Assembly: GCF_964204645.1 (NCBI RefSeq)
Contig: NC_134031.1
Coordinates: forward strand, 18,163,307 to 18,227,306
From: Tubulanus polymorphus
Lineage: Eukaryota; Nemertea; Palaeonemertea; Tubulaniformes; Tubulanidae
Direction of reading: 5' to 3'
DNA length: 64,000 bases
Below the pieces are notes generated by a model. The model worked only from the letters and a program-made list of their open reading frames with translations. It was not told where the DNA came from and searched no databases. Position numbers and translations under genes: made by a program. Shown here piece by piece: positions 4,863-24,390 of this stretch; the stretch's first letter is position 1; every line of letters begins with the position of its first letter.

Positions 4863-5048
4863 AGTCTCTGGATCGGGACCCCGTCAGTCTCGGGGTGCTG
4901 AGAGCCACTGGATCGGGGTCCTGTCAGTCTCTGGATCGGGGTGCCGAGAGCCACTGGATCGGGGTCCTGTCAGTCTCTGGATCGGGGTGCCGCAAGCCAC
5001 TGGATCGGGGTCCTGTCAGTCTCTGGATCGGGGTCCTGTCAGTCTCTT
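4863..5048. repeat. minisatellite of alternating 23-bp units (46-bp dimer)
   Basis: Units beginning GGATCGGGGTCCTGTCAG alternate with units beginning GGATCGGGGTGCCGAGAG. Each is 23 bp, giving about four dimers. The array sits just downstream of the SLC12A9 stop codon, in or next to its 3' UTR. The open frame through it (4835-5101) arises because the unit is stop-free and is not a gene. Confidence 0.85.
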
Positions 5049-5122
5049 GTTCAGCTCAGCTTTTCAAGCGCGGTTTTTACAGCGAGTGTTTGATTCAATA
5101 GTGGCGTCGGTTATCGCCGTGG

Positions 5123-8100
5123 TTACAGGGTAGTAGATGTAACAGGATGTAACCCGTGAACGAGTACGGTCGGAGGTAAACCTGCCGTCAGTTTATCGAT
5201 CTGATTCAGATAGCGTTGATAGTTATTCTTACGCCTAGGTGGCGCCGGTAGGTAACAGAACGTAACGGCCGTATTTTCGCTCGATTGTTCACGAATGATT
5301 TGGTTCATTCCGGCGACGTAATCTTCGGGGAAATCGAAATCATCATCTCGATCGTCGTCGCCGTCGGTAACCTCGTGATCGAGGATCGCCGTTACTCGCT
5401 CCCACGTGATGATCTTCACCTCGGCGATTATCCTCAGTTGCCGTAGCAACTGGTCGAGTTTGCGCTCGATGGCGAGCACGTCGTCCTCGCGAGCGTCGAC
5501 GCAGAGGAACACGCGTAACACGGTGTGCGCCTTCCAGCCGCGTACCATGTGTAAAATACATGATAACTGCAGCAGGAAGAGACACGACGTGTCGAAGTAC
5601 GTCACGCTGTCTGGGCGGAAAAAATTCACCGGCCACGCGTCGATAAACATCGGTTTCTTACAGCTGAGAATGCGATCTCGATCTAAACGCTCGAAGTGTC
5701 GACATAAACTGACGTTTTTCTGCATTTTAATCGCGTCGGCGATCATCTGAACGTATTCATCCACGGTGAGGTGCTTCGCCTGATGAAAGGCGCGTAAATC
5801 GCCGAATACCTCCCCGCTGAAACCGGCCGCCGTAAAATCGCCGTTCTCTCCGCTGCTGCTGGCGCTGCCGTTCGTATCGCCGCGGCGACGCTTCCGTTCG
5901 ATCAACGCCGTCAGATTCTCGCTCGGAGGTTTGTCGTCGTAGAAACCGAACATGACCATATTCGGCTTCATTCCGCCGAGTCCGGAAATACGGATGAGAT
6001 GGTGCATACCGTCGCGGATACTACGAGCGACCGTCAACTCGACGAACGCTTTCACCTTCAAACGATCGACTAATTCTAACCAGGAATTATTCGCCTCTTG
6101 AACCGGATCGGAGGAATCGGAATCGAAGTCGGATACTTCCACGTGACCGAGGATATACAGACCGCTTTTTTTAGCGTCGTTCGCGAATTTGATAAGCGGC
6201 GCGCAGGCGCGAGGGTTCGATACCATCAACAGAATCTGAGGACGCCAGTATTTCACGTGTTCTTTACGCGAGTCGAGTAGTAGTAGGTATTTGCGAACTT
6301 GATGGAAAATCAGCGCCTGACTGATCGAACCCCACGTCGTCGGCAACGAACGGAAATGAAGTAAAATGACGAATAACATGGTGACGATGATCGCGACGGC
6401 GGCGAACACCGGCTGAATCAGGAAACACATGACTAAACAACCGACTAAACCGAGCAGACACGTGTACCACGAGAAATACCGGAACGTAGGTCTGAAAAAT
6501 ATACATCATTATTACAATAGATTAACATCAATCAGCATAATTATAAGGCGGGATCTCGGGGGCGCTAGAACCTCAGGGTAGGCCTAGGTACTAGAATTTG
6601 GTTGGGATACGAAAAATTAAAATCATCATCATCATCATCAAATTCACGGACGGAAGGAGGCCTTGTGGTGGCCTATTGGTGTCCGGCTCGTTTGTTGATT
6701 AGTATTGGTTAAGGTGAAATCAAACTTTTCCAACAGGATACATGATATTTCTGATTTAAACCACTAAAAAGATATCTTCCCTTAGTATAATTCTTTCCTA
6801 ACGGACGGACGATGGATGGACTTAAGTCTCAAGTGTGCTAAAAACCACAATCTAAATTGGTGCCGAGTCAAATCAGCAGAAGTCTACGGTGTTTAGAATT
6901 TCCTACGGATATTTACCTGAAATTTGGAGCCGACGCTAATTCTAAAGCCAAACAGGCGAGATTTGTAGCGGCGTACGACAACAGAAAGAATACGGATGTA
7001 ATCGGAGCTATCGCGTTTAAACTTCCAATCAACATTACAGCCTACAAACACAATCAATAGCATTACTTCAACACTTTAATGTAAATATAATCAGTTTCAT
7101 TTATCCATCATATGAAATTCTATGAAGGTCGATTTTTTTTTTTTCTTTATCGAGAACGAACCTGAACTAAAACCCATGAAATAAGTACAGCTATGACCGG
7201 GTTACCGCTTTTAGTCGTGATCTTCGCAGGTGAAAGAAAGATCCCTAAAATAAAACAACAATTCAACAGCGTGATTGATTTCTAATCAGTTAGAGACAAG
7301 ATTAGCCCGTACACTGACGTGGAGAATACCCTCTATATACTCATTCACCTGACGATAATCTCTAATGAGTTTTTTCGAAATTTTTAACAAACAAAATTTG
7401 CTTCTAATAATCCTCTAAATTTAGTGGGTTTTAAACTACCGGTAATTATTTCAATATATACGTACAGAATAACTCATCCCTCGCGAGTGCTTCGAGGACC
7501 CTCGACGCTCCGATCAGGTTGCCTAGCGATGCAGACAGTGTTGCCGCGAATATACCGATGACGACGAACGGAGGCCACAGGTTGACGTCTTGCATGAAAC
7601 CATATTTATTCATTAATAATTCCCTGCAATAATAGAAAATGTTAATCAATACTAGTTGATCATTGTTTGAAGGAAACACAGTTAATAGACTGGTCTTAGA
7701 ACCAAAATGATATTAAACTGGTTTTGAGTCGTTAGATTGGAACTGGTTTCTAAGTTGTTAGATTGACTCTAGAACCAAAATGAGTTTAGACTTGACTGAA
7801 CAAAGTAGCCATACCTTGAACAAGTGAATGCTGTAAGTATTGCAAGTACGATGTAAGTTGATAATGTGAAGACTGAAGCTCCCATTGTTCCTAGTGGTAT
7901 CGAGTAGCCCGGTTCCTTCAATTCACCTACAATTCATTATCACAAACACTTCAATTTATATCTCATCTCGGTCTCAGGTAGATATAGATGCGAATAGAGT
8001 TTGAAAGAAGTTGAATTGGCATTTATTTTTACCTGACATGTTCGCTCCATTCATAATACCAGTCACGCTGCTGAATAAAATCGCGAACACAGTCACAAAC

Positions 8101-11100
8101 GTCATCACGTTCCCAGTATTATAATCAACTCCAGTTTGATCTATAAACAAAATATGATTCAATTCTAAGTTTACCGTTTAAAGTCGAGAGTTAGATTCAA
8201 CTCCACAATAAATTGAGCCAAATATGAGCTAATTAACCAAGTTCTGGGTTCTTACAGATCAGAGATTGCAGAATTCCCTGGTATTTGCCAGACCCTTGAC
8301 CAAAAATTCACTGATTAACCCTTTCAGTGCGTCTACACCGCAGTGCGGTGTAAAAATCGGTGATGGACATTGCTAGTACACCGCAACGCGGTGTATTGAC
8401 GTAATTAGTAATTAGTTTAATTTCTAATGAAAGATGGCAGCACCTGTCAAACATAGTGAAATATTAGTAACTAACGATACACCGCTCTGCAGTGTAGACG
8501 CATTATAGCGGTATACCCATTATTCGACACACTGGGGCGGAATTTCTAGAAAATTTCAAATTATCTCCAGCACTTTGGGTGTTACTTAGTCAGCACTGAA
8601 AGGGTTAAAATATAAAATATCCTCATTGGGGGCTATTTTCGAGAGGTTCCTTATGCCACTCATCACCAGCAAGAACAACAAGCCCCCCAAAAATCAAATT
8701 CTGAATTTTAAGATATGAGTTCAGAATTTCCTGATTTTCCCTACAGGTATTCTACAATTCCCTGCTATTTTCTGATCTATAAGAACCGTGTAATATCATA
8801 ACGAGATCTAAAGGAAACCTACCCCATAAATTTCCTTCAAATGTTTTCAATGAGAGTCCCGTATAGTTTTCACAGATTGTATAGTTGATGGTTGAGTTGT
8901 AGATGATATGATTTGTAGTCGGAATATCAACGCAAAGCGGACCTTTCTTAGCTAGAAAACTGATAATCACCGACATAAAACACACTACAACAACCTGCAA
9001 TATACAACAAACATAATACCTTACTTACAGAGGAGCTCCACTAGGAATGCTCCCTTCAACCCACAGAGCAGTACTCGGGGCATTCCCTATTATCAGTAGG
9101 TTCCCCTCAACCCGAGTGCCCTTCAGGAAATTAACGATAGATTTGAGATTTAAGGGGAAAGAGGTCAAAAAAGGCTTTGACTAAAAAAACAAGAGGGTTC
9201 AAACCCACGAAACGTAGAAAATGTATATGTTAGATTGAACATCAATTAAAAGTTTTACAATAAAGTTTCAAATCACTCACAAATAGAATGAATAGAGATG
9301 TTTTAGCGAACATCGCGGCACCGACGAGACAAACACAGCAACAGACTATAGCGATACACGTTTCATAAAGATACATCCACCATTTACTGCTTCCAGAAGT
9401 TCCAGACGGCAGATAACCCATCCCATCCGTAATCATCGTGCCTACATAATACAAACAATGAAAATATATCAAATTCATTGTCGATTTTATTGTTTGAAAA
9501 ACTACTTGGTTTTGAAAAGTAAAAAGAAATATGTTGGTTAATAACTTTTGAGCGTTATTTTGGATTCTTAAAAAGATTTAAAACCATTTTCTTGCTTTGA
9601 TGGCGAGTGACTGTAGAACTTACCGCCTTCGCCGAAATTGTCGATTAAACCTTCAGTGAACGCGGCTATATATAACGCACAGGAGAACACATTCGCTAGG
9701 AAGAACAGGAACCCGATACTGCCTCCAAACTCTGGTCCTAGAGCACGACTTATCATATCTTATCACATATCAATGAAGGAATGATAAATCTTAAATCATT
9801 GCTTTAATTCTGGATCATTCACTGATGATCTGGGTCCAGTTTCACAGTCGTGAGTTTAAAGGATTTAAATCAGAGTTAACTAATTCTAACACATAACAAC
9901 GTTACTTGCAAATGTGGAACTTAACCTGGGGCTCTGCAGCCGTTATAGTATCACAATTATCAGATAGATGGCAGCTTGGTGGTGGTAACACTTTTTCATG
10001 GATATTAATCCTAGGTTAGAGTTGTTGAAAAATTTAGGTCTCAATCACTCATCAAACATGATCTAATCTTTATTCAAAAAGTTCCACAGAAATCTTGGGA
10101 GTGAAACAGTGAACATTAAGAGATAGATGGATGGTTTAATATTTGATCGAAAGGATACAATACGCTCCCCCTCCTTCTACAGCTCCGTTTGTTGAAATTG
10201 CACAAATTGATAAAATCGTCATAAAAAGAATAAAATAAGCCAAGAAGAACTGTACAATCGTTTCTAGTATACCGACTTGACCAACGACAAAACCTGCAAA
10301 ATACAAAAAGGGTGAAAAATATCAGTATCTCATGGAGAATTTCTGCACCACACTGTATACAGCTGCACAATAGAGAAAATAATGGGTCAAAGTTATTCGA
10401 GGTCAAAAACATTTCCACATCACATGACATGATGAGTGTGCAGGGAATTCTAGGAAAATTCTCAATCAATCAATCAAACTACCCTACAGATGTTACAAAT
10501 AAACTTTCTATTTCATTTTCACTTTTGAATAATGATTCTATATTACAAGACCTGGGATTCCACAATACACAATTTTAACTGATAATTCTGTAGAACAAGA
10601 TCCTGATTTATAACAAGCATTCATATCAAATGACCTTCAGTAAAAAGTGTCCTCCCTTAATCAAAGACCGGTAAAAACTATATATAGTTTATTATCACTG
10701 ATAAATGATTATCTTACGGAGAACTTTGAATTGTGAACCCCTGGGGAGACACAAGAGATAAGATAAAAAATGTGCAGGACGAGATCTAAAAATCTTTCCA
10801 TACAACACTCTACAATATAATGAGCAGACCAGTGACCGACCCACTGAGCCTATTTATATCCAGTTAATAATACCTAGAGGGATTAAACTCTATACTTCAA
10901 ATGATATATAAATGTTAATCCCGGATAATTGATATCAGTTACGCAACTCACCTAGACGTAGAAATAAAACAGTACTGAACATCGATAGCGCAACTGGAGC
11001 GAATACTCCGGGAATCGTCGATAGGTGGCGGTGTCCTCCACTCTCTCCGATACGGACCCATGTCGACAGTCGCCTGCGATCGCTGAGGTCCTCACCTCCG

Positions 11101-11336
11101 ACCCCAGCCCCAGCACCGGCAACGCCTGCATTGTTTATACTCAAATTACGTAATAAAGGCGTCCGATCGTCTATTTCGTCTGTACCTACACCGGGAGGAG
11201 GCATATCGATAGAGGTGGAATATCCATCATTCCCTTCTCTATCCTCCCCTCCTCCTGACGACATACTGCTCCCTAACTGACGAATAAAACTCCTCAATCT
11301 ATGAGATGAGGTATACCTGCGAGGAGACGAGTCCAT
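5123..11336 (-). CDS. SLC12A9: SLC12A9 (cation-chloride cotransporter family member 9), complete, 11 coding exons
   Basis: Coding exons in transcript order are 11336-10952, 10293-10159, 9758-9624, 9441-9281, 8994-8823, 8140-8033, 7926-7815, 7623-7466, 7244-7162, 7041-6917 and 6491-5123. They total 2943 nt, or 980 residues, and every junction keeps frame. Human SLC12A9 has 914 residues. Order of parts: a cytosolic N-terminus with a Gly/Ala run; TM1 [20 protein letters not shown]; then TM segments with family landmarks [53 protein letters not shown], and [10 protein letters not shown]; then a long C-terminal domain ([37 protein letters not shown]) ending [15 protein letters not shown]. These match SLC12A9 rather than the NKCC or KCC branches. 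An N-glycosylated loop ([13 protein letters not shown]) lies in exon 5. SLC12A9 is an atypical member reported as a lysosomal/endosomal transporter of ammonium or amines with chloride. The start was placed at 11336 because it is the only in-frame ATG upstream of the conserved part. A piggyBac-like MITE lies in the intron between exons 5 and 6. An alternative first exon is at 17656-18010. Confidence 0.95.
7683..7800. repeat. dispersed repeat piece ('GTTAGATTG..GAACCAAAATGA' type) in a SLC12A9 intron
   Basis: Repeating phrases of the form 'agactggt(c/t)tt...gttagattg...gaaccaaaatgag' occur here, in the intron between exons 7 and 8. The same phrases recur at about 40166-40330 and inside the foldback at 55973-56102. 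This marks a dispersed family, not an exon. Confidence 0.55.
8319..8604. mobile_element. piggyBac-like MITE (286 bp, 12-bp TIRs, TTAA target duplication)
   Basis: The ends are perfect 12-bp inverted repeats, CCCTTTCAGTGC at 8319-8330 and GCACTGAAAGGG at 8593-8604. They are flanked on both sides by TTAA (8315-8318 and 8605-8608), the target-site duplication of piggyBac-type transposases. The interior carries short palindromes: ACACCGCAGTGCGGTGT near the left end, ACACCGCAACGCGGTGT, and a decayed copy ACACCGCTCTGCAGTGT. It has no coding capacity, so it is non-autonomous. It sits in the intron between SLC12A9 exons 5 and 6. Confidence 0.88.
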
Positions 11337-11486
11337 CTTTACTGTCACTCACCACACCGCCGCCGGAACGTAAATAAACTACTGTCAAAACCGACCCCAG
11401 AATTTCACTTCCTCGTAGGTAATCCCTCTGTTGTTGTGATGACGTCATTTTGAATCGTATCATGTGACGGCGGAATTCCGGACAAA
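11337..11486. promoter_or_regulatory. bidirectional promoter SLC12A9 / TTC36, with CRE and M-box
   Basis: Only 150 bp separate the start codons of the two divergent genes. The gap holds a perfect palindromic cAMP-response element TGACGTCA at 11440-11447 and an M-box/E-box TCATGTGAC at 11460-11468, a site class bound by MITF/TFE factors. An ETS-like CACTTCCT is at 11406-11413. No TATA box is obvious. Both genes may be driven by the same core promoter; that is inference from distance. Confidence 0.7.
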
Positions 11487-13483
11487 ATGGCGGACGAGAT
11501 CAGCGAACACGATTCGGCGATTTTAAACAAGATTTTCAATCCTAATCAACCGTTCGAGCCGAGTACAGCGCGCGTGAATACAGCAGCAGACGACCAGAGA
11601 GAAATAGAAACTGAAACCACTCGTGAAGTGAAGCGGTAAGTGACGTCAGCGCTGTGAAATAGTAGGAAATACGCGGCGTCTCGTCGATCAATCAGCAGAC
11701 ACAGTGCGCGTTTAGCTGAGACAACAGCTGTGTGCATAAATACACCACAATACAGAGTGTAGCGAAACTAAAACCGGTTTCAATGTTCTATAGTCCACCA
11801 CGAGTACATAATGAATACATGAATTATTTATGGATCAGATTAGATAAAGCAAACCGGGCTGGTTGTTTCAATGACTGGTCAGTGTTGAATGTGGTGATAT
11901 AGGCCTACTGAAGTTGACAAACCAGACCGCTAATTCAAACCTACCACACACGACACAGTGTCGACTGTTTTTAAATCAAACCAGTCAAATTAGTCTAAAA
12001 ATAAATTCTATATTTGATTAAACTTCCTTCTTGCGCTAAAATACTCAGTAACGATTACAGGGGAATCCCATTACATTGAACTTCAGGTGCAGACCAGGTT
12101 TTAAGCTCAGCAATTCCAGACCCAGTTCCATATTTTTGGATCCAGTTCAACAATTCAAAAACCCAAGTTCCACAGTTCTCGATCGAGTTCCTCAGTTCTC
12201 AGCTAAATTCAATTGTATAATTAATTGTATAGTTAAAATGTGTTCAGTTCCAACTTTAAAGAGTCAACTGTAGATCTAGTTCCTAGTTAAAGATGATATT
12301 AATACCAATGCATCGGAACAATCAGTTCAAATTCATAGAATTGTTTTTTACCCGGTAATAAATAATTCAGATAAATAGTTTTATATACGATGAAATGCTA
12401 GTTTTGTTTAATGTTGTATAATTCAGGTTAGAACTGGCCGGAGTGAAAGCTGCAGAATCGGGAGATTTCAAGAATTCTCTCGAGTTTTTCACCCGAGCTA
12501 TAAATCTCGAACCGGAGCGAGGGTCCGCTTATAACAACAGAGCACAAGCGCTTAGACTAAAAGGAGATGTGGAAGGTTCGTTTCCACATTCAGAAGAGTC
12601 AGTTCCACATTAAGGAGCTAGTCCAGGAGTTGACTCCATCCACAGTTGAAATTTTTTCAGCCTCAAATTCCAAAATTCTATTTCAAGGGTATAAAAACCC
12701 TCAAATTCTGAGTTTTAGCCCGTGACCCCTTAGAAAATATGCTTCAATCTCAATAAACTCTCAGAAAGTGAAGCTGATTTGTTATTCTTTGAGATAATGT
12801 GAGAATTTCTGGAGATGAAGTCGTTTTATGTCATGTTTTTTTTTTCAGGTGCTCTACAAGATCTGAATAAATCAATAGAACTGACAAGTGGTAAAGGACA
12901 AGTTGCCTGTTTAGCATTTACACAACGGGGTCTAATTAGAAAACTGAAAGGTTTGTTGAACTGTCCACAGAAACGCAAATACTCGATACAAAACTGAAAT
13001 TGACTTCGACTGATTTCAAATTTCATAACGCAGCTGGACTTGGTCTAGTCATCATTTGATAAGTCATCGCATTAGATTTTTTGGTCCAAATTTGTATTTC
13101 CAAGTCAATTCAATTAGTTTAAGTCATCATTTGGATAAGACATCATGTCATCCCTAATTTTGAGTGCCAATTTGTATTTCTAATTCAATTTCCTAAGCGT
13201 AAGTCGTTATTCGGAAAATTCGACATATGATCAACCCAACTACTACCGTAGCATCATCATAAGTAAAAGATGGACCCACAGCTACAAATAGCTTCGAACT
13301 GGTTTTGGTTTTTTTATTGCAGAAGATGTTGAAGGAGCTACAAATGATTTTCAGAAAGCCGCGAATCTCGGATGTCCGTTCGCTAAACAACAAGTCGTTG
13401 AAATGAATCCATACTCGGCGATGTGTAACAAAATGTTAAACGAGGTTATGGTTAAATTACGCGAAGGAAATCCTGTCGAATGA
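11487..13483 (+). CDS. TTC36: TTC36 (tetratricopeptide repeat protein 36), complete, 4 exons
   Basis: Coding exons are 11487-11635, 12427-12575, 12849-12950 and 13323-13483, all with GT-AG borders and matching phases. They encode about 186 residues. Conserved parts are the N-terminal [14 protein letters not shown], the TPR core [20 protein letters not shown], the strongly diagnostic [40 protein letters not shown], and the C-terminal [20 protein letters not shown]. The length and end match vertebrate TTC36. TTC36 (HBP21) is a small cytosolic TPR adaptor; in mammals it has been linked to stability of the tyrosine-catabolic enzyme HPD. The ATG (in ACAAAATGG) is in good context and immediately precedes the conserved N-terminus. 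The gene shares its promoter region with SLC12A9. If the alternative SLC12A9 exon at 17656-18010 is used, TTC36 lies antisense inside that intron. Confidence 0.95.
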
Positions 13484-13891
13484 GTGACATCGTTATCACC
13501 ATCGCAAACATTCCAATCTAACGCAGTATTAGAGCTTGCAACATTTCACGTTTGATATATCTGAACTGTTCTACAATTGTTGGCTGAATATTTGACTTGA
13601 AGAGTTATAATTCATTTAGTTGATACTCAATAGAGTCAAATTTCAACGAACATCTGTGGAACTATGGAACTTGATTCAGGATCCGGTTCCTCAGTTTGGC
13701 TGTAGAACTGTAGAACTGAGCTGGCAGTATATATTGAGCTGTTTGAAATGAAGTGTGTGGATTTTTCCTTGTTATTATTGAGTGAATGAGTGAAATTCTT
13801 TTTTTTTGTAAATTGATCTCATTTTTTGGAGATATTTCTTCAGATTTAGTCACATTATTATTACATTGTTTATTGGTTAAAGGCGAATGTT

Positions 13892-13897
13892 AATAAA
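13892..13897 (+). terminator. candidate poly(A) signal AATAAA for TTC36
   Basis: AATAAA occurs about 410 bp after the TTC36 stop codon on the same strand. It is the clearest canonical hexamer I noticed downstream before the satellite block. The cleavage site is not determined. Confidence 0.4.
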
Positions 13898-14693
13898 TCC
13901 TTTACATAAATATTAATCATATTTCAAGTATTATATTATTTTGGTCTGAGGTCGTCAACTGGAAGAGGAATTACTGGAATGGGTAAAAAAAACTTCAGTA
14001 CCAGGAAAATAGACCTAATACCGAAAGCAGCGTGTAGATGGCAGCACGAGATGGCCACCGATGATTATATCGATATTGATAATTTGAACGCAGCACCTGC
14101 TGCCTAAAAGAGAAGGTGGTAACAGCCGTCAGTAGACAATCCTTTATTGATCTGATCATTACATTCTATACAGAAAGTAAATTCTACAGATCTTTGTAAA
14201 ATGACACTAAAAGTTATTGTTGTCAAACTATCGTGTAACAGACTGTAACAGAGAAACGCAGTGATCATTTCATAAAACCAAATTGTTGAAAAACCGTTCA
14301 AAACTTCAGGTATTCGGACACGACCCCCCGGCCCCCACATCCCTGAAGAGATCGAAATCAATTCACACAAGTCGCATATAAAAAATTTTGAATTTTGAAC
14401 AAATCTCTGAAGACTGAGAGAAGAAATCTTTTGTAAACAAACAAGTCAAATCTTCATAGTTTGGGATTTTTATACGCTGGAAAAGATGATTCGAATATTT
14501 TAAATATTTTCCGTAAATTTTCAGGGATGTTTAGTTTTGGAAACAAGTTACAGTTCGACGGGTTATAACTGTAGACAGAGCCGATATTTCCAGACTAATT
14601 AAAATTGTAGATCAATGACCCAGACAAACAGGGGAAGAAGCCTACATTCACTGAAACACAAATAACATATGTGTGATCTACAAGCTGCAATGA

Positions 14694-15802
14694 TTGCTCT
14701 CTGCAGGTATGATCTACGAGCAATCATCTCAGAGTTCAGATGATTGCTCTCTGTAGGTATGATCTACGAGCAATCATCTCAAAGAGTTCAGATGATTGCT
14801 CTCTGTAGGTATTATCTACGAGCAATCATCTCAAAGAGTTCAGATGATTGCTCTCTGTAGGTATGATCTACGAGCAATCATCTCAGAGTTCAGATGATTG
14901 CTCTCTGTAGGTATTATCTACGAGCAATCATCTCAAAGAGTTCAGATGATTGCTCTCTGAAGGTATGATCTACGAGCAATCATCTCAAAGAGTTCAGATG
15001 ATTGCTCTCTGTAGGTATGATCTACGAGCAATCATCTCAAAGAGTTCAGATGATTGCTCTCTGTAGGTATTATCTACGAGCAATCATCTCAAAGAGTTCA
15101 GATGATTGCTCTCTGTAGGTATTATCTACGAGCAATCATCTCAAAGAGTTCAGATGATTGCTCTCTGTAGGTATGATCTACGAGCAATCATCTCAAAGAG
15201 TTCAGATGATTGCTCTCTGTAGGTATTATCTACGAGCAATCATCTCAGAGTTCAGATGATTGCTCTCTGTAGGTATGATCTACGAGCAATCATCTCAAAG
15301 AGTTCAGATGATTGCTCTCTGAAGGTATGATCTACGAGCAATCATCTCAAAGAGTTCAGATGATTGCTCTCTGTAGGTATGATCTACGAGCAATCATCTC
15401 AAAGAGTTCAGATGATTGCTCTCTGTAGGTATTATCTACGAGCAATCATCTCAAAGAGTTCAGATGATTGCTCTCTGTAGGTATGATCTACGAGCAATCA
15501 TCTCAAAGAGTTCAGATGATTGCTCTCTGTAGGTATGATCTACGAGCAATCATCTCAAAGAGTTCAGATGATTGCTCTCTGTAGGTATTATCTACGAGCA
15601 ATCATCTCAGAGTTCAGATGATTGCTCTCTGTAGGTATGATCTACGAGCAATCATCTCAAAGAGTTCAGATGATTGCTCTCTGAAGGTATGATCTACGAG
15701 CAATCATCTCAAAGAGTTCAGATGATTGCTCTCTGTAGGTATGATCTACGAGCAATCATCTCAAAGAGTTCAGATGATTGCTCGTAATTAGGTATGATCT
15801 AT
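14694..15802. repeat. hairpin satellite: ~21 units of 50/52 bp in a 362-bp higher-order repeat
   Basis: Each unit carries a perfect 11-bp inverted repeat, GATGATTGCTC and GAGCAATCATC. Between the arms a second 4-bp stem, GTAG/CTAC, encloses a 7-nt loop, so every unit can fold into a cruciform or RNA hairpin. Units differ at fixed places: TATGATC or TATTATC in the loop, CTGTAGG or CTGAAGG, and a 12- or 14-nt spacer after the right arm. The CTGAAGG variant recurs at 14959, 15321 and 15683, and the short spacer at 14881, 15243 and 15605. Both are exactly 362 bp apart, which defines a seven-unit higher-order repeat (six 52-bp and one 50-bp unit). It lies between TTC36 and the alternative SLC12A9 exon. 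It is not a CRISPR array: there are no unique spacers and the genome is eukaryotic. Confidence 0.95.
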
Positions 15803-15814
15803 ATATTGAGGTGA

Positions 15815-16045
15815 CTGACCGAGTGACTGTCCGACCAAAGCGGACCAGAGTGACTGACCAGACGAGATATGAGCGACCAATCCGAGTGATTGACCAAATC
15901 GACCACGAGTAACCGTCCGGACTAACAAGAGTAACGAACCGGACCAGACTGACCCGAGTGACTGACTGACCAAACAGGATTTGAGCGACCGACCGAACAC
16001 GAGTGGCCGGTCAGACACAAGCGACCGACCGAACTGATGCGGACC
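15815..16045. repeat. degenerate minisatellite (GAGTGACTGACCGGACC-like units)
   Basis: Short imperfect repeats of phrases like GAGTGACTGACC, GAGCGACCGACC and GAGTAACGAACC directly follow the hairpin satellite. The open minus-strand frame here (15788-16153) is Gln/Ser/Leu-rich noise from the repeat. Confidence 0.7.
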
Positions 16046-16529
16046 TGAGTCGGTTGTTCGGTGGTTTATGTAGCTATAAAACGTTTCATACGATGATAAC
16101 ACAGAAATCATTGAATAGAACAGTAACAGGTGTTTCATATAAAAACGATTCACGATAACATTGTTATAAAAATGTGCAGCACGTTTTAGGATGAAGATCG
16201 TCTGAAATCCTCTGTATTATGTGATGAGTGAAATTTTACCTACAACATATTGAATTATCGCCTGAAGTTGAAGTAAGCCTATGGCCTGACCAGGTCCCAG
16301 TCCCCCAGTCCATGAAACATGTCCATAGATAAAAAGATTTCTATCACTATTTTCACTCTCCTCTCCCTGGGCCTGGGTCCCTCTCCTCTCCCTGGACACC
16401 TTCCCAACTCTCAGGGTTATAGTCGTTTTTAGACTCGGGTTGGCAAATTATTATATATTATACAAGATTTTGTTAGGAAATAACTGTTAATTATTCTTTA
16501 TTGATGAAATTAACATAACATAACATTAG

Positions 16530-16805
16530 GCCTACCCTCCTCCCTGGAACCCTCTCTTCTCCGGCCTGAAACCCTCTCCCTGGAACCATCCCTCCTTTAG
16601 CAACCCTCACTCCCTCCGCTTCGTACCCCCTCTCCCTCTCCCTGGAACCATCTCTCCCTCTGCCTGGAACCCTCTCTTCTGCGGCCTGAAACCCTCTCCC
16701 TGGAACCATCCCTCCCTTAGCCTGGAACCCTCACTCCCTCCGCTTCGCACCCCCTCTCCCTGGAACCATCTCTCCCTCTGCCTGGAATCCTTCTCCTTCT
16801 CTCCC
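16530..16805. repeat. pyrimidine-rich minisatellite, two ~130-bp units
   Basis: Two long units built from CCCTCTCCCTGGAACCATC, CCTCTCTTCTCCGGCCTGAA and CCCTCACTCCCTCCGCTTCG follow one another. The same sub-unit CTCTCCCTGGA also occurs near 16360-16400. The overlapping Gly/Arg/Glu-rich minus frames are repeat-encoded and not genes. Confidence 0.8.
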
Positions 16806-16859
16806 TGCCAGTTCAGATGATACAAATTAAAAGTGATTTTTGCGTCTGCCGTTGATTCA

Positions 16860-17035
16860 GAATGAGATCATCAGACATCGATCGTCACCCCCGGCGACGA
16901 GCAGACGCGCCGAAACAACAATATGCGCCGTTTTTTCTCGTTGCCACGGTAACGCTCTACCAGCAGACAGACGAGACACGTAACACGGTAACTTAGCCCG
17001 AGGAGCCGTGATTGACAGAACGAGAGTAAGTCACG
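16860..17035 (+). promoter_or_regulatory. CpG-rich promoter-like block with an RFX X-box
   Basis: This block is richer in CpG than its surroundings. It contains GTTGCCACGGTAAC at 16940-16953, an inverted-repeat X-box of the RFX type (GTTGCC-N2-GGTAAC). A consensus splice donor GTAAGT follows at 17027-17032 on the plus strand, so the block could be a non-coding first exon of a rightward transcript, for example of the small Maf gene. No protein is encoded. The exon and promoter role is inference. Confidence 0.35.
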
Positions 17036-17655
17036 ATATCATCAGAGACCAGTGTATGAGAGGGAGAGAGGGGGAAGAGAGAGAGGAGAGAGAGGGGGAA
17101 GAGTATGTCTCATTGTTTCTGGCAGTAAAATGATGAATACAGTTGGTGACTGTTTATGCTGTTTATAATTGAGCTATTAATTTGATGAGGTCATCATTAT
17201 ACCTGGTAATAGTAACTACTGTCTGAGTATATCCACACACTACAACCGACTGCTGCCCGGATTATTTATAGCCATGCAGGTCGTGATAAACCTGAACCTT
17301 ATAAACTACAGATCCTCAGGGCAAACAAAATGCGAAACCAGTTTCTGGTTTAACTAAAATATTTGGTTAAGATGCTTTTTTCCTGTAATTATTCAAGATT
17401 ACAACATGAAGGACAAAGTCACAGGCGCAGTTTTTCCATGTATGATGTTTGACGAAAAAGAGGACTGAATTGAGATTGATTCAAGCCTCAGATTTCAGCC
17501 CAAGATTCAAATTTCGGACTCTGGGTTGTCTGGTCTCTTGGAGATGTCTGGGTTCTCTCAATTCTCTGGGTTGCCTCAATTCTCTGGCTCCGTTCTGCCT
17601 CAATTCAATCTAGTTTTCTCGTCAAATATAAATATATTATATAAACAATACATAC

Positions 17656-18010
17656 CGACTCGTTGAAATACGTTAGTACTGAGTTGACCTAACGCTACCG
17701 GACCGAACACGCCCCCTAGTGTCTTTAACGTGCGTTTCGCCGTATCGCTGTACGACTTCCCGGCGTTCTCCACGTAACTCAATCCGGTCAGATCGTGGTA
17801 ATATTTGCCTCCGTCCGACAGTTCATCCGAGCCGTTCGGTCGTCGACGGTGATGTAATCCGCCATTGTTACTACCGTTACTACGGCGATTGCTACCGTTA
17901 AGGATGGGTTTTTTCTCGTCCGTTTCGATCCCGGGCGAGGTTGACGTGTTATTCGAGTTTGTATCGCTTGGTTCCTGCTTAGCCCGGATTTCTATTCCAT
18001 CCAGCTCCAT
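17656..18010 (-). CDS. SLC12A9: alternative first coding exon of SLC12A9 (different N-terminus and TM1 half)
   Basis: ATG at 18010-18008 opens 118 codons plus one base and ends at the donor G|GTATGT (17656/17655), the same phase as SLC12A9 exon 1. The last 20 residues, GVFGPVALGQLSTNVFQRVG, align with the exon 1 end [20 protein letters not shown]. Splicing to the exon 2 acceptor at 10293 would restore [11 protein letters not shown]. The upstream cytosolic part (MELDGIEIRAKQEPSDTNSN, poly-Asn/Gly/Arg stretches) is unrelated to that of exon 1. No further SLC12A9-type exons follow before 11.3 kb, so an alternative promoter is more likely than a complete second gene. A decayed tandem duplicate is the alternative. 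The changes put Gln and Asn into TM1. Confidence 0.7.
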
Positions 18011-18276
18011 TTAAACGTCGTATGAATTTCGAATCCGTGTTTTTGTTATGAATGAATGTCAGATCTTTATTTGGAAGACGGCACCGGCAGCAGCAGCAGC
18101 AGCAGTCGTAGCATCACGAGCGGAGCGCAGTTGATTCAACTACCGAGATTCAATACCTCACACGGTTTACATCCTAGAAATATCACAGACAAAAAACATC
18201 GTTCATATACATACAACGATAATCTATGAGACACAAGACCTACATTGACTTTGGATTAAAATGTTTGTATTCAATT

Positions 18277-18529
18277 CTGAATACAACCAGACAAGACCCA
18301 GATTCACTTAGCCTACAACCAGACAAGACCTAGATTGACTTTGGATTTAAATGTTTGTATTCAATTCTGAATACAACCAGACCCAGATTCACTTTGCCTA
18401 CAACCAGAAAAGACCCAGATTCACTTTGCCCACAACCAGACAAGACCCAGATTCACTTTGCCTACAACCAGACAAGACCCAGATTCACTTTGACCACAAC
18501 CAGACAAAACTCAGATTCACTTTTCCTAC
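18277..18529. repeat. 32-bp minisatellite, block 1 (diverged)
   Basis: Units of the form GACCCAGATTCACTTTGCCT plus ACAACCAGACAA repeat here, partly with longer diverged units. The same array resumes at about 18942. The region between is non-repetitive. Confidence 0.85.
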
Positions 18530-18941
18530 AATAATGGGCCATGCATAAAGTATGTACGCTTGACTTCCAGGTATTTTTTACCCCCCTCCTCCCATGAACG
18601 CTTCTGTAGGTTAATTTATGACCCTATCCTTGCATACATAACTCTTTGATTGACCCCCCTCCCGGTAAAATGGAATTTTTCAGGATCCATGGTTTAAAAA
18701 AGGCAAAATTCACCAGCATTCATCAGAGCTCCGACGACACAATGTATTGATATTGTGAAAGAACGAGAGTGGGGAATTCCCAGGAAATACCAACAAATAT
18801 AGGCGATATTTGTAAAAATTCACATTGTGTTTCGTGCACAAAGTACGTACTATAAACATTAACCCTCTCCCTTAGAATAGTGTGTACGCTTTGAGCTTAC
18901 CCCTCCCCTCCCCCTGTACGTTTCTGTATGGATTTCTAAAA

Positions 18942-19344
18942 GACCAGGCCTAGATTCACTTTGCCTACAACCAGACAAGACCCAGATTCACTTTGCCCAC
19001 AACCAGACAAGACCCAGATTCACTTTGCCTACAACCAAACAAGACCCAGATTCACTTTGCCTACAACCAGACAAGACCCAGATTCACTTTGCCCACAACC
19101 AGACAAGACCCAGATTCACTTTGCCTACAACCAAACAAGACCCAGATTCACTTTGCCTACAACCAGACAAGACCCAGATTCACTTTGCCTACAACCAGAC
19201 AAGACCCAGATTCACTCTGCCTACAACCAGACAAGACCCAGATTCACTTTGCCTACAACCAGACAAGACCCAGATTCACTCTGCCTATAACCAGACAAGA
19301 CCCAGATTCACTTTGCCTACAACCAGACAAGACCCAGATTCATT
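18942..19344. repeat. 32-bp minisatellite, block 2 (about 12 copies)
   Basis: A regular 32-bp unit (GACCCAGATTCACTTTGCCT + ACAACCAGACAA) repeats with few changes. The unit contains no stop codon in any plus frame, and 32 is not a multiple of three. All three frames therefore stay open and encode the same Gln/Pro/Thr-rich peptides, which explains the overlapping frames of 109-128 codons. It is not a gene. Confidence 0.92.
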
Positions 19345-20067
19345 TAGAATCAACATTGAAAATCTTTACAACACATTAAATTTTAAAATAGCCAGATAAA
19401 ATATTCAAAACATTTTCGAGGTAAACAATTGTGTTTGAGTTTCAAGATGACGAATAATCTGCCTGGACCTAGTTTTTTAAGGTTGAAATCAATAGCTCCA
19501 GAATCAACTCAAAACTACAATCGAAACAGCAGTCAGTATTGAAAATAAAAAGTTTTGAAAAAAAATATTAGGAATAATTACAGCGGCCCGGATTTGATCT
19601 CCTAATCATTTACCAAAGTGCCCCTTGTCACGGTGAAAATGTGCCCTTTTTTTCTTGAAATAGAACTGCCCCCTCAAAAAAGCTTGCCACTGGCCTGTTA
19701 CACGGAACAACTGAATGTTGAGTTGTAATCGAAGAATTCTCGATGCTTCACAGCTGTTTAAGTTAATTTATTCATCAAAAACATCAGAATGTTATAAATT
19801 CAGTACGGGAGAATACGTTGAATGTTTACCCTTCAGAGCAGCTGCAAGATACACTACCTCCTCCATACGTAATACATATTCTACTGTTCTCAGAGTCATA
19901 CAGTATAGTAGTATACAACCACAACATACTGTTTACACCTTACATAAACTCATTCTTAATCAAACAGGTCAATTTGACAAGTCAATTAAACAGGTCAATT
20001 AGACGGGTTAACTTTAATAAATACAGTTCAATTTCAAAATTGAAGATGTCACCTTCAAATTGAAATT

Positions 20068-20212
20068 TTGATTAGTTACTTATGACGACCTTCTCATTCT
20101 CGATGACTTTGATGATTCAGTAAAAGTATGATTAGTTACTAATGGCGACCTTCTCATTTTCAATGACTTCGACGATTCAGTAAAATAATGATTAGTTACT
20201 AATGACGTCCTG
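20068..20212. repeat. ~60-bp tandem repeat, 2.5 copies
   Basis: Phrases ATGATTAGTTACTAATG(G)CGACC, TTCTCATT, and GATGACTT..GA(C/T)GATTCAGTAAAA repeat at about 60-bp steps. The rest of 19350-21400 shows no gene. Confidence 0.7.
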
Positions 20213-21419
20213 AAAATGGCCTTAATGAATAAGAATTCCGTAAAACCCGAGACTCAACCTCAAAATCAATCAACATTCAATATAGGCCTACATAAAACTA
20301 TCAGCATAGAAAACATCTGTCTGTCTTCCATACCGGTCCCTCCCACTGTTGTGTGTTTAATTTTACATCTAGAATCAAATCAATAGTTTAGCAACCTTTA
20401 AAATGGAAGTAACTGATATTCATTCCCCTGAGAGTGAGAGGGGGTTTAAAGTCCTGAAGCCAGGAATAATCAACAGTATGTAATCCTACAGTCAGTAATT
20501 GATAAAACATCTGTTACTGAACGATTTATAATATACTACAATCGATTTAACACTTAATTCCACAATCATCTTGTATTACAAACATTATATAAACACCATA
20601 CATAATCTAATTCAGGTTAACATGGACCCTGCGCCCTGGGGCCTGCAGTGGGCATCTGAAAAACTATAGCATTAAACACACATGGATATGAGTTTATATT
20701 CATGCATCAAATAAAGCCTATTCTACCATTAGCCTGAAACAAATTACATAGGCCTATACTCCTTACTTAAGTTCATTTAAAGTGCACTATTTCTTGTTTA
20801 AACAGTTATTTTATACTTTATTCTTTACATTTTATGCTTAACGTCAGAAGGACAATAACATTTCACTAGTCACATAGACAGAGCATTTGTAGAGACCCGT
20901 AGATTATCCTTTCATCATTTTAAGACCCTAAACAGAGGGGCTTATATCAGTAGAGAAAACATGAAATTTTATGAATGCATTTTATTGGTATTAGTTAGGA
21001 CTAATATCTAATAATCGAATTGTATATATGTATATTCGCACAGGCCTATAGTGTAACTTACAGCTGACCCAACTGAGACTTTTATCACTGACATACCATT
21101 TAAATACAAAATTAGCCTACATGAATACAAATGTGATGAAAACTTCATTTTAAATCGTTTTACCTTTTGTCACAGAATTAAGATCCACTGAGATCGTGTG
21201 GTATATACAGGTATACTACTGAAGAGCGTATGCATGTGAATCATTGACAACTGTCATCAGTGTGTAGTTCACCATACAGCCGCACGAGAGCGCCACCGAT
21301 CAGCTTTCAAATCAATCTAGTTTATTGTTGAAGAGTGACGAGTCATTCTACATTAGAAGAATAATAATCAGTATTTGTGAGAATTATTGACTGTGGGTTC
21401 AGTCCGGGAATTATTCGCT

Positions 21420-22304
21420 ATGTCTGGAAGAGTGGTGAGTATTACTGGAAATCATCGACGGGTCGCGAAATTTCAACAAATCGAAAACATTTCTGATACT
21501 CTGTTTTGGAAAGGACCCGGGGTGGGGAGGGTGTTTAATACGCCCCGGGGCTGGGCTAAGAACCACTGATTCTGGTTTGAGACGTTTTAAACTCTGATCT
21601 GAATCGGTTTACATTTATTTACTGCTTTAAATCGGTCGAAATTCCGAGATAAAAATAATTTTTACCATCGCTCGGCTCCACCGGCATCCATTCGCGCGAT
21701 TCAGAATGGCTGATAGTCACCGGATTTCCCTGGCGCTCGATGACGCAATTTAGAAACAACCAATCAAAAAGCTGCTACTGCCATTACGCAATAGACTAAG
21801 CCGTGTTCCGATTGGCTGTTTCGTTAGATTACGTCGTTGTTGGAGACGCGCGAAAGTCATTCGATTCGAATCCCAAATATATTCTGAAAAACGCGAAATA
21901 ATATTTCAACCATTTTATCTAATTTTCAGAGTAAAAGTAAGAAACAACAAATAAAACTATCGGACGATGACTTAATCACGTTATCGGTTAAAGATCTGAA
22001 CGGGTTGTTGAGCGGTTTGCCGGCAAATGAGGTGCGAAAACTGAAACATAGGCGACGCACGTTGAAGAATCGCGGCTACGCGGCACATTGCCGGGAGAAA
22101 CGGGTCGTTCAGAAAGAAGAGTTAGCGACGGAAAAAGAGACACTGGCGCAGGAAAACGATCGTCTTCAACGCGAGAACAATGACATGAAAGACAAACTGA
22201 AGAATTTAAAAAGAACGTACGAACAATTGTCGAAGTTTAAAAATTCTCAAGTGAAAAACGTTAGAAAAGTGAAAAAGAAAATAAAAACCGAACCAACGGA
22301 TTGA
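21420..22304 (+). CDS. small Maf bZIP transcription factor, complete, 2 exons
   Basis: Exon 1 is 21420-21434 (MSGRV, donor GTGAGT); exon 2 is 21930-22304. The protein has about 129 residues. The extended homology region [17 protein letters not shown] (about 18-34) is followed by the Maf-type basic region [18 protein letters not shown] (about 46-63), with the Maf-specific RGYAA in place of the usual bZIP Asn-x7-Arg surroundings. A zipper has heptad leucines or Met at each turn ([36 protein letters not shown]). There is no long N-terminal activation domain, which defines the small Maf group (MafF/G/K). Small Mafs bind MARE/ARE sites as homodimers (repressing) or with CNC proteins such as Nrf (activating). 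The C-terminus [10 protein letters not shown] contains a SUMO consensus I-K-T-E. I cannot assign F, G or K; invertebrates usually have one. Confidence 0.95.
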
Positions 22305-22465
22305 GGGAGCAAGAATCAATCTAAATGTTTTTCTCAAAATACCGAGTGGTATTAGTGTTTGCGGTTCACATCTGGCCTGAGTGCCTGAAATCACAAAAAA
22401 CTTAAGCCATAATTTGTTGTGACTCGGTGTGCCAATTCGAATTGTAAATGGACACATTAAATGGT

Positions 22466-22471
22466 AATAAA
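22466..22471 (+). terminator. candidate poly(A) signal AATAAA for the small Maf gene
   Basis: AATAAA lies about 160 bp after the small Maf stop codon, on the same strand, followed by T-rich sequence. Confidence 0.5.
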
Positions 22472-22846
22472 GATTTTCTCAGTCATAATATTATTAGAAC
22501 CATTAATGATTTGTCTTTTAGTCGTTTTCTTGTCGGCGCTGCCACCGCGGCTGAGGACGGCCAGGAGTCTATTCAAAACCAGAATAATGCATCGTTTTTA
22601 ATCATATTTTTACACTGTCGCAGTCGCGATGCCATTTTGAAGCTCTACAAATTAACAATTAAACACGATAAATTAAATATTGAATTACGCAAATACATTC
22701 AAATACGGTACATCAATTGATTGACAGAATGCTTGGCACTTCATGAAATAAGCTACATGTCAATTTTTTTCAAAGATCTTGTTTCGATGCGTGAATGGAT
22801 TAGACCATGTCAACGAGAATGTATTCAAAACTCACAAGATCATGTC

Positions 22847-22936
22847 CCCTCGATAGCTCAGTTGGTAGAGCGGAGGACTGTAGAGTTGACACAGTTGGAT
22901 ATCCTTAGGTCGCTGGTTCAAATCCGGCTCGAGGGA
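22847..22936 (+). tRNA. tRNA-Tyr (GUA anticodon) with a 17-nt intron
   Basis: The acceptor stem CCCTCGA (22847-22853) pairs with TCGAGGG (22929-22935), and A22936 is the discriminator. The D arm is GCTCAGTTGGTAGAGC; it doubles as the A box. The anticodon arm GAGGA-CTGTAG is interrupted one base after the GTA anticodon (22880-22882) by a 17-nt intron (22884-22900); it continues with A-TCCTT. The T arm GCTGGTTCAAATCCGGC holds the B box. The mature length is 73 nt. Animal tRNA-Tyr genes nearly always carry an intron at this place. A terminator-like TTTT occurs some 20 nt later. Confidence 0.96.
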
Positions 22937-22989
22937 GTATTTTACATTTTTCATCTTGTATGTGCTTTTAAGATATTCTTCTAAGATTT

Positions 22990-24390
22990 TTCATTTAATT
23001 TCAACACGTTATCGTCAAAATAAAATCGTACATTTAGGTACAAATGCTCACCAGTTAGATCCGATCTACAGTCGCAAATCACAGTCAGTGTCTTATGGGG
23101 CAAGTTTCTGACGCCTCTGTGAAAGTGTTCAAAAAATACAAAACGAAAAGCCTCTATTTAAAACAATTCATTTGTACCTTTATTTTTTTTTCAAGCTGCA
23201 ATGAAATATTTACAATTTATTGGGACCTTTTACCCACTTTGTCCACGTAACGTGCTTTAAACATACGTAGGTGAATGAAAAAAAAAACAACTTAAAGAAC
23301 TAATACAAACTTTAAATTAATAAAAAAATAAGAAAAATAAAACTCAAAATTCAACCATTTTGAATTCAAATTAATTCAATCAAATATTATTTACAACTTA
23401 TCACCAATGCTACCATGTTACCATGACGACTATATCACCGCAGAGATAACAATGATAACGAATAATACCAATAATATTTCATAATTACAAACAGTAACAT
23501 CCCAATAAAAGTATAGTTAATACATAGGGTTAAATATCACCAAATATAACCTAGTACCATAATCTATATAGGTTTATTCAATAATCACATGATGTAGGAA
23601 CAGATCCAGGGGGTTTTGTGAGTTTTGTACAAGACCCTCAAATGTTTGAATCCGCCTTTTCTGAATAAACTCTTTTATTTTGTAACTGCCGAATCTTATG
23701 AACCTCTCTTGCTTAATTGGTAGGAAAAGATTTGTCAACTGGAAACGCTGTGAAATGCATCTCACCTATCCCACAAGCTTTGATCATTGCTAAAGCGCCT
23801 CAGAATAAGCCTTTTCAGTGATCAGAATCAAACCCTTAAATGCGCCACATGACGGCCAAAAGTAGTCCTAGGATCCGCCCCCGTAATGTGTAATAATTGA
23901 GAGAATTGCAAACACTGCAAGCAAAAATACGAGCTCTGCACTTTGAGAAATATTATGTATCAAAGCTTTCATTTAACCTCATTTTAACAATAGAAGCAAA
24001 ATAATTGAATTATTGGTAATCAATAGTAGAGAAAAAGAGTGATTTTTAAATCTTTAAAGACAAATACAGATTACACAAAGTGCAAGAAAGTAGAACCTCT
24101 TTATATTGGACGGAGTGTAATTTCATTATGGAGCAAAAACTAAGAGGTTAGAGTTGATAAGGAGTTTAGAGTTGTTTTGAGTTGAAGACTTAAAATTTAG
24201 AGAAAGATTGATTTCATCTTCTACGTATCACAATTAATTCACAATCGAAGCTTTGAATTCACAGATATCAATCAGAGGAATGATTCAAGTTTGTCGAGGG
24301 TTTATCAACTGAAATATCAAAGACTTGTTGGTGGTTTATGTATGTACCACCAGGGGGAGGAAATCCCACTAAGGAAGCCTGAACATTTTG
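22990..24390. other. intergenic, AT-rich; nothing recognised
   Basis: Between the tRNA and the last exon of the M28B peptidase gene I see low-complexity A/T runs (around 23270-23340) and no coding signal. The 3' UTR of the minus-strand peptidase gene presumably covers its right-hand part. Confidence 0.5.

Follow-up and report, generated by a model that had tools for sequence, protein, structure and literature searches.

The 64,000-nucleotide stretch of Tubulanus polymorphus DNA analyzed here (hereafter the window; contig C7, positions 18163307 to 18227306) carries on its minus strand a gene of the SLC12A9 type, a member of the SLC12 family of ion cotransporters. About 6.7 kb upstream of its first coding exon (the proximal exon) lies a second, distal exon that is a diverged copy of exon 1, and probably this duplicate has been kept as an alternative first exon of the same gene. 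The exchange would replace not only the N terminus of the protein but also the first part of transmembrane helix 1 (TM1), the half next to the ion-binding site, and the best reading of the substitutions found there is that the alternative first exon would alter ion handling or regulation. The coding exons of the two candidate forms are listed below, where a slash marks an exon boundary.

17656..18010, minus strand: candidate first coding exon, distal; encodes 118 residues and one further base, ends ...GVFGPVALGQLSTNVFQRV/G
10952..11336, minus strand: first coding exon, proximal; begins with ATG, encodes 128 residues and one further base, ends inside TM1
10159..10293, minus strand: shared exon 2; rest of TM1 and TM2
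9624..9758, minus strand: shared exon 3; equivalents of the TM3 Tyr and Glu; a U12-like intron precedes it
9281..9441, minus strand: shared exon 4; open in the spliced model
8823..8994, minus strand: shared exon 5; open in the spliced model
8033..8140, minus strand: shared exon 6; open in the spliced model
7815..7926, minus strand: shared exon 7; open in the spliced model
7466..7623, minus strand: shared exon 8; open in the spliced model
7162..7244, minus strand: shared exon 9; open in the spliced model
6917..7041, minus strand: shared exon 10; open in the spliced model
5123..6491, minus strand: shared exon 11 and stop codon; open in the spliced model, with a Pfam SLC12 domain

An earlier note on this DNA had proposed two minus-strand first-exon candidates that end in homologous 20-residue stretches, break in the same phase after one base of a Gly codon, and both fit the exon 2 acceptor at position 10293. 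Each of these proposals was borne out. The two exons begin with ATG and end in phase 1, with a GT donor directly after, and either one joins in frame to the acceptor TTTTGCAG/GTTTTG, from which exon 2 begins. With the proximal exon, the 11 exons form one open frame of 980 residues whose stop codon ends at position 5123. When the distal exon takes its place the frame is unchanged, and an open SLC12A9-type protein of 970 residues results. When ranked with a splice-site matrix among all minus-strand GT or AG dinucleotides, the proximal donor and the exon 2 acceptor both stand at the 99.9th percentile.

The last 20 residues encoded by the two first exons are identical at 12 positions (14 of 25 over a slightly longer span), and their ungapped BLOSUM62 score of 58 compares with 26 for the next best among all stop-free six-frame 20-mers of the window. 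The whole-exon protein alignment scores 87, a value reached by none of 2000 shuffles (maximum 58), and BLASTP aligns the proximal and distal exons with an E value of 3e-8. If the last 20 residues are removed, the alignment score falls to 47, which is matched or exceeded by 39 of 2000 shuffles. The remaining similarity is thus weak, and the homology is clear for the TM1 part but suggestive for the N-terminal part. Neither first exon alone is matched by Pfam, and thus the silence of Pfam does not set the distal exon apart; a search of the PDB with the distal exon alone likewise gave no match. The N termini of the two forms are almost wholly different, although both include an acidic stretch of the form [DE]xxx[LI][LI] (DRTPLL and EKKPIL). 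The pattern is that of a lysosomal sorting signal, and its presence here counts as a motif match only.

Membership of the gene in the SLC12 family is indicated by the Pfam matches of the proximal model to PF00324 (AA_permease; E = 2.3e-69) and PF03522 (SLC12 C-terminal; E = 5.2e-21), and PF00324 also matches residues 1 to 206 of the distal model (E = 2.2e-15). A PDB search returned 34 sequences at E ≤ 1e-3 (best 1.3e-83), all of which are SLC12 members and none of which is SLC12A9; the similarity to KCC, NKCC, and NCC structures is clear. The score against the K-Cl cotransporter model TIGR00930, 463, is below its cut-off of 953.4. The same genome (267.8 Mb in 77 contigs were searched) contains one KCC-type locus on contig C3, one NKCC-type locus on C5, and one A8-like locus on C8, where the types were assigned by eye from TM1 and its neighborhood. 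TM1 of these three genes reads N-I-[FW]-G, whereas that of the gene described here reads S-M-F-S. Because separate KCC, NKCC, and A8-like loci are present, the gene, judged by its sequence, is distinct from KCC, NKCC/NCC, and SLC12A8 and is an A9-type member by exclusion. The name SLC12A9 for the 980-residue model is putative. As a separate observation, the intron that follows exon 2 (10158-9759, minus strand) opens with GTATCCTTT and closes with TTCCTTCAT...ATAAG, a pattern that fits U12-type (minor) introns. Scored with the U2 matrix, the donor of this intron is at the 45.7th percentile and the acceptor at the 55.2nd.

The substitutions in the distal exon fall at positions of TM1 for which structures of related transporters assign roles. 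In TM1 of zebrafish NKCC1, backbone carbonyls coordinate Na+ (at L219 and W222) and K+ (at N220 and I221), whereas Cl- is bound by the backbone amides of G223, V224, and M225 (PMC9784483). In KCC1, the outer gate pairs Arg140 with Glu222, and Tyr216 contributes to K+ binding (PMC9784483). Ungapped alignments place the proximal stretch L-S-M-F-S-T-V against L-G-Q-L-S-T-N in the distal exon. Thus, at the positions of N220, I221, W222, and M225, the proximal exon encodes S, M, F, and V and the distal exon G, Q, L, and N, so that ion-coordinating positions, as their roles are given in PMC9784483, are substituted. A third new polar residue, a Gln, adjoins the gate Arg, and the alignment therefore agrees with the proposal in the earlier note that the distal exon puts Gln, Asn, and Gln into TM1. 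The TM1b gate Arg itself is kept in both exons, and the TM3 Tyr and Glu equivalents reside in shared exon 3.

The further proposal that these residues could change ion choice stands in part. The new Gln and Asn do occupy the K+ position I221 and the Cl- position M225. Binding at both positions is by atoms of the backbone, however, and thus a change of ion choice is not a direct consequence. Because coordination is by the backbone, the distal side chains would instead act through the shape and polarity of the hinge, and an altered affinity, coupling, or occupancy is plausible. It is also conceivable that the distal form is regulatory and transports poorly, given that CIP1 (SLC12A9) was reported first to attenuate NKCC and subsequently to enhance transport by KCC2 (PMC9784483).

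The same backbone binding, together with the retained gate Arg and the retained Tyr and Glu equivalents of TM3, is also consistent with a live exon whose isoform is set apart chiefly by how it is sorted or regulated or by where it is expressed, as in the case of KCC2a and KCC2b, with TM1 changes that are nearly neutral for transport. The N termini that differ almost wholly, each with its [DE]xxx[LI][LI] stretch, fit this explanation as well. It would leave unexplained, however, why the substitutions cluster in the hinge (S-M-F to G-Q-L, and V to N), and the dileucine-like reading is a motif match with a presumed sorting role, alongside an N-terminal similarity that on its own is weak. We consider it one of the ways in which the exon could be live, with its odds counted within those of the preferred explanation and short of an even prospect overall.

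Whether the distal exon is live or a dead copy can be addressed from the state of its reading frame and composition. An open frame of 118 codons after an ATG arose in a fraction of only 0.004 of 5000 composition-matched trials. The exon has a GC content of 0.52 and a ratio of observed to expected CpG of 1.69, similar to exon 11 (0.52 and 1.80), whereas the 256 bp past the distal donor have values of 0.39 and 0.50. A CpG ratio of 1.5 with a GC content of 0.48 was reached by 34 of 1272 windows scored, of which 24 are in exon 11, 5 in the distal exon, and 5 elsewhere. Furthermore, the exon keeps four of the five TM1 residues (G, V, F, F, R) that are common to the KCC, A8-like, and proximal A9 sequences of its own genome. 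The intact 118-codon frame and the GC and CpG content resembling those of exon 11 favor a live exon.

A number of observations weigh against this conclusion. The distal donor, CG/GTATGT, ranks at the 96.1st percentile and is weaker than the proximal donor. Mean TM1 hydropathy is 0.99 with the distal exon, compared with 1.72 for the proximal exon and 1.65 for KCC2. The fifth shared TM1 residue, the hinge Phe, is replaced by Leu (NKCC has Trp there). Three-base periodicity is 1.49, a value reached by 10% of 290 noncoding windows, whereas the proximal exon gives 2.49 and four windows of exon 11 give 3.4 to 5.3. High CpG is not peculiar to coding sequence, because the ratio is 1.35 in one intron of the gene and 1.36 in the 190 bp that precede the distal exon. 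By codon score the distal exon surpasses 99% of 3000 random windows. A second frame of the exon and a frame on its opposite strand score about equally, however, and codon usage was dropped as coding evidence. Differences between the two first exons number 11, 7, and 12 of 24 at the three codon positions, and a neutral test of a 19-codon stretch, exon against exon, gave P = 0.02 for the retention of residues and P = 0.21 for an excess of third-position changes.

The ordinary periodicity and the weak signal of selection make it possible that the copy died recently. By this account the distal exon, whether it arose as a duplicate of exon 1 or is all that is left of a tandem gene copy, is a recently dead or dying remnant that the gene neither splices nor needs any longer, and the three polar residues in a membrane helix and the loss of the hinge Phe would be readily understood. 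Nevertheless, the frame, phase, and donor are intact despite a Jukes-Cantor third-position divergence between the first exons of 0.82, both branches together. In simulations of free drift over half of this divergence, only a fraction of 0.036 of 3000 runs had no stop codon, and the probability of survival free of insertions and deletions over the same span is about 5e-7 if 0.1 such events per substitution are assumed. These values argue against an old death alone, since after 0.05 simulated substitutions per site the frame stays open in a fraction of 0.547, such that an open frame would be unremarkable following a recent one. Debris of exons 2 to 11, moreover, was not found in the 50 kb on either side. 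A dead remnant is therefore unlikely in our judgment, and retention as an alternative first exon is the explanation we prefer.

No gene other than the SLC12A9-type gene was found to which the distal exon might belong. A tblastn search with both isoforms across the window and the ten surrounding 10-kb pieces revealed no tandem gene copy, and beyond this gene and its two first exons the best E value was 0.89. A second set of A9 exons 2 to 11 was detected neither in the 50 kb that flank each side nor in the 268-Mb genome search. With the 980-residue model as its query, the latter yielded 23 rows from 25 candidates, all 25 of which were scored: 11 rows represent this gene, 4 lie on C3 (KCC), 4 on C5 (NKCC), and 2 on C8 (A8-like), and 2 weak rows fall in or adjoin amino-acid-permease genes. 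Short exons could escape such a search, as the distal exon itself is absent from the rows of the proximal query, but a second set of exons 2 to 11 should have shown. Of the four SLC12 genes, only the A9-type gene has in common with the distal exon a phase 1 break at ...R[LV]/G, and the KCC, NKCC, and A8-like translations have no interruption at this position. The distal 20-residue stretch, which is closest to A9 exon 1, is identical to the A8-like sequence at 7 of 20 positions and to KCC at 5 of 20 (NKCC was left out of this count). Because no second A9 copy was found and, of the four genes, only the A9-type one has an intron at this position, we conclude from these comparisons that the distal exon is a duplicated exon 1 of that gene, with no other home found.

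Partners for the distal donor were also sought between positions 17655 and 10294, where 83 phase-compatible stretches (an AG followed by 30 or more open codons) exist. The 24 that passed a filter for hydropathy or pyrimidine content were viewed; 4 fall within the proximal exon, and by eye the remaining 20 show no resemblance to TM1b-TM2. The whole-window tblastn search likewise revealed no separate exon 2. Three viewed stretches just upstream of the proximal exon (11651, 11541, and 11411) close after 36, 45, and 37 residues. Outside the proximal exon, the exon 2 acceptor is the only fitting partner in sight. That the distal exon belongs to another gene or to a paralog missing from the assembly, or is joined at an AG inside the proximal exon, is quite improbable, for although short exons may be overlooked and four proximal-exon AGs (11272, 11185, 11044, and 11035) keep the frame, a search for exons 2 to 11 of another A9 gene detected none, the neighboring small-Maf-like and TTC36-like genes are on the opposite strand, and two TM1 halves in one protein are judged unlikely.

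The intron that the distal isoform would remove contains one further gene.

11487..13483, plus strand: TTC36-like gene with tetratricopeptide repeat (TPR) domains identified by Pfam, nested in the distal-isoform intron; exon joins made by eye

We presume that TTC36 is the proper name for this gene. Its ATG is 150 bp from the proximal SLC12A9 ATG, and the two genes would share the promoter region between them, which includes a TGACGTCA site. Positions 11430-11480 of this region hold TGACGTCA together with a TCATGTGAC stretch, which we take to be loosely like the lysosomal CLEAR element. Elsewhere within the intron, a 52-bp unit that includes inverted copies of AGCAATCAT is repeated in tandem about 21 times at positions 14690-15801 (96% matches), and an X-box-like site, GTTGCCACGGTAAC, assigned by the RFX consensus, matches on both strands at 16940-16953 (5 matching places in the window).

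Upstream of the distal exon, an acceptor-like site at 18173 ranks at the 96.9th percentile, and six others above the 90th are located at 18276-18525, mostly in tandem repeat; these would allow a noncoding exon further up. Arrays of a 32-bp tandem repeat occupy 18282-18531 and 18941-19342, and the first of these holds acceptor-like TTGTAG sites on the minus strand. Farther away are an open reading frame like a small-Maf bZIP protein by eye (21888-22304, plus strand; CpG ratio of 1.6 around it), an unrelated tRNA (22847-22936, plus strand; 60.3 bits) that is the sole Rfam match in 5000-24000, and a 317-residue open frame that by eye is like a seven-helix G protein-coupled receptor (29414-30367, plus strand). 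A search for viral contigs gave 36 pattern stretches, none of which was confirmed.

With the homology, phase, and open frames observed directly, we infer that the distal exon is transcribed and spliced in the following manner. A transcript would start at or upstream of approximately 18.0 to 18.2 kb, and 17656 would be spliced to 10293, such that the mature product would skip both the proximal exon and the TTC36-like gene, which is antisense to it. The product would carry a different cytoplasmic N terminus, TM1a, hinge, and start of TM1b on an unchanged body, and the changed hinge might alter ion affinity or coupling or yield a regulatory, poorly transporting partner. Since the distal transcript would run antisense through the TTC36-like gene and the shared promoter, mutual exclusion of the two forms is conceivable. 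A more far-reaching proposal, which we regard as tentative and rather doubtful, is that one gene encodes two promoter-chosen transporters unlike in the ion-site half of TM1, where the distal form favors other cations, differs in its preference for chloride, or serves as a nontransporting subunit that tunes its own dimers or SLC12 partners, and where antisense firing through the TTC36-like gene and shared promoter could make the forms exclude each other.

Should the isoform be produced, it would represent a natural swap of the hinge at the ion site in an SLC12 transporter of lysosomal type, with the rest left unchanged, and the two forms would offer a ready experiment on what sets the ion choice of SLC12A9. 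We know of no earlier SLC12 alternative first exon that extends into the membrane core, and this one would be the first known. SLC12A9 is described as working in lysosomes, where it appears to cotransport NH4+ and Cl- (review, PMC11933331), and its substrate was proposed only recently (reviews PMC9784483 and PMC11933331). The gene described here is, by exclusion, probably SLC12A9/CIP1 itself, and the candidate TM1-swapping isoform would be the difference. Such an isoform did not appear in a literature search that covered a part of the matching open-licence papers, which is weak evidence.

Other SLC12 genes provide partial precedents. The alternative exons of NKCC2 are internal cassette exons. 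In its A, B, and F variants, 23 residues in TM2 and loop 1 alternate, with hints about ion kinetics (PMC4301019). The candidate exon is similar in offering alternative versions of part of a membrane helix, but it is a first exon, needing its own transcription start, and it covers TM1a and the hinge rather than TM2 and loop 1. The KCC2a and KCC2b isoforms of SLC12A5 arise from alternative promoters and have different N termini, with KCC2a longer by 23 residues (PMC6391895). Here too, one SLC12 gene has two candidate first exons that would give different N termini; unlike KCC2, where the cytoplasmic N terminus differs, the exchange would extend into TM1 and the ion-site hinge. The N-terminal splice variants of KCC1-3 are alike in their N-terminal diversity, whereas the distal exon also includes a membrane part. 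Thus, a first exon that extends into TM1 would combine the alternative promoters of the KCC2 type with the alternative membrane segments of the NKCC2 type.

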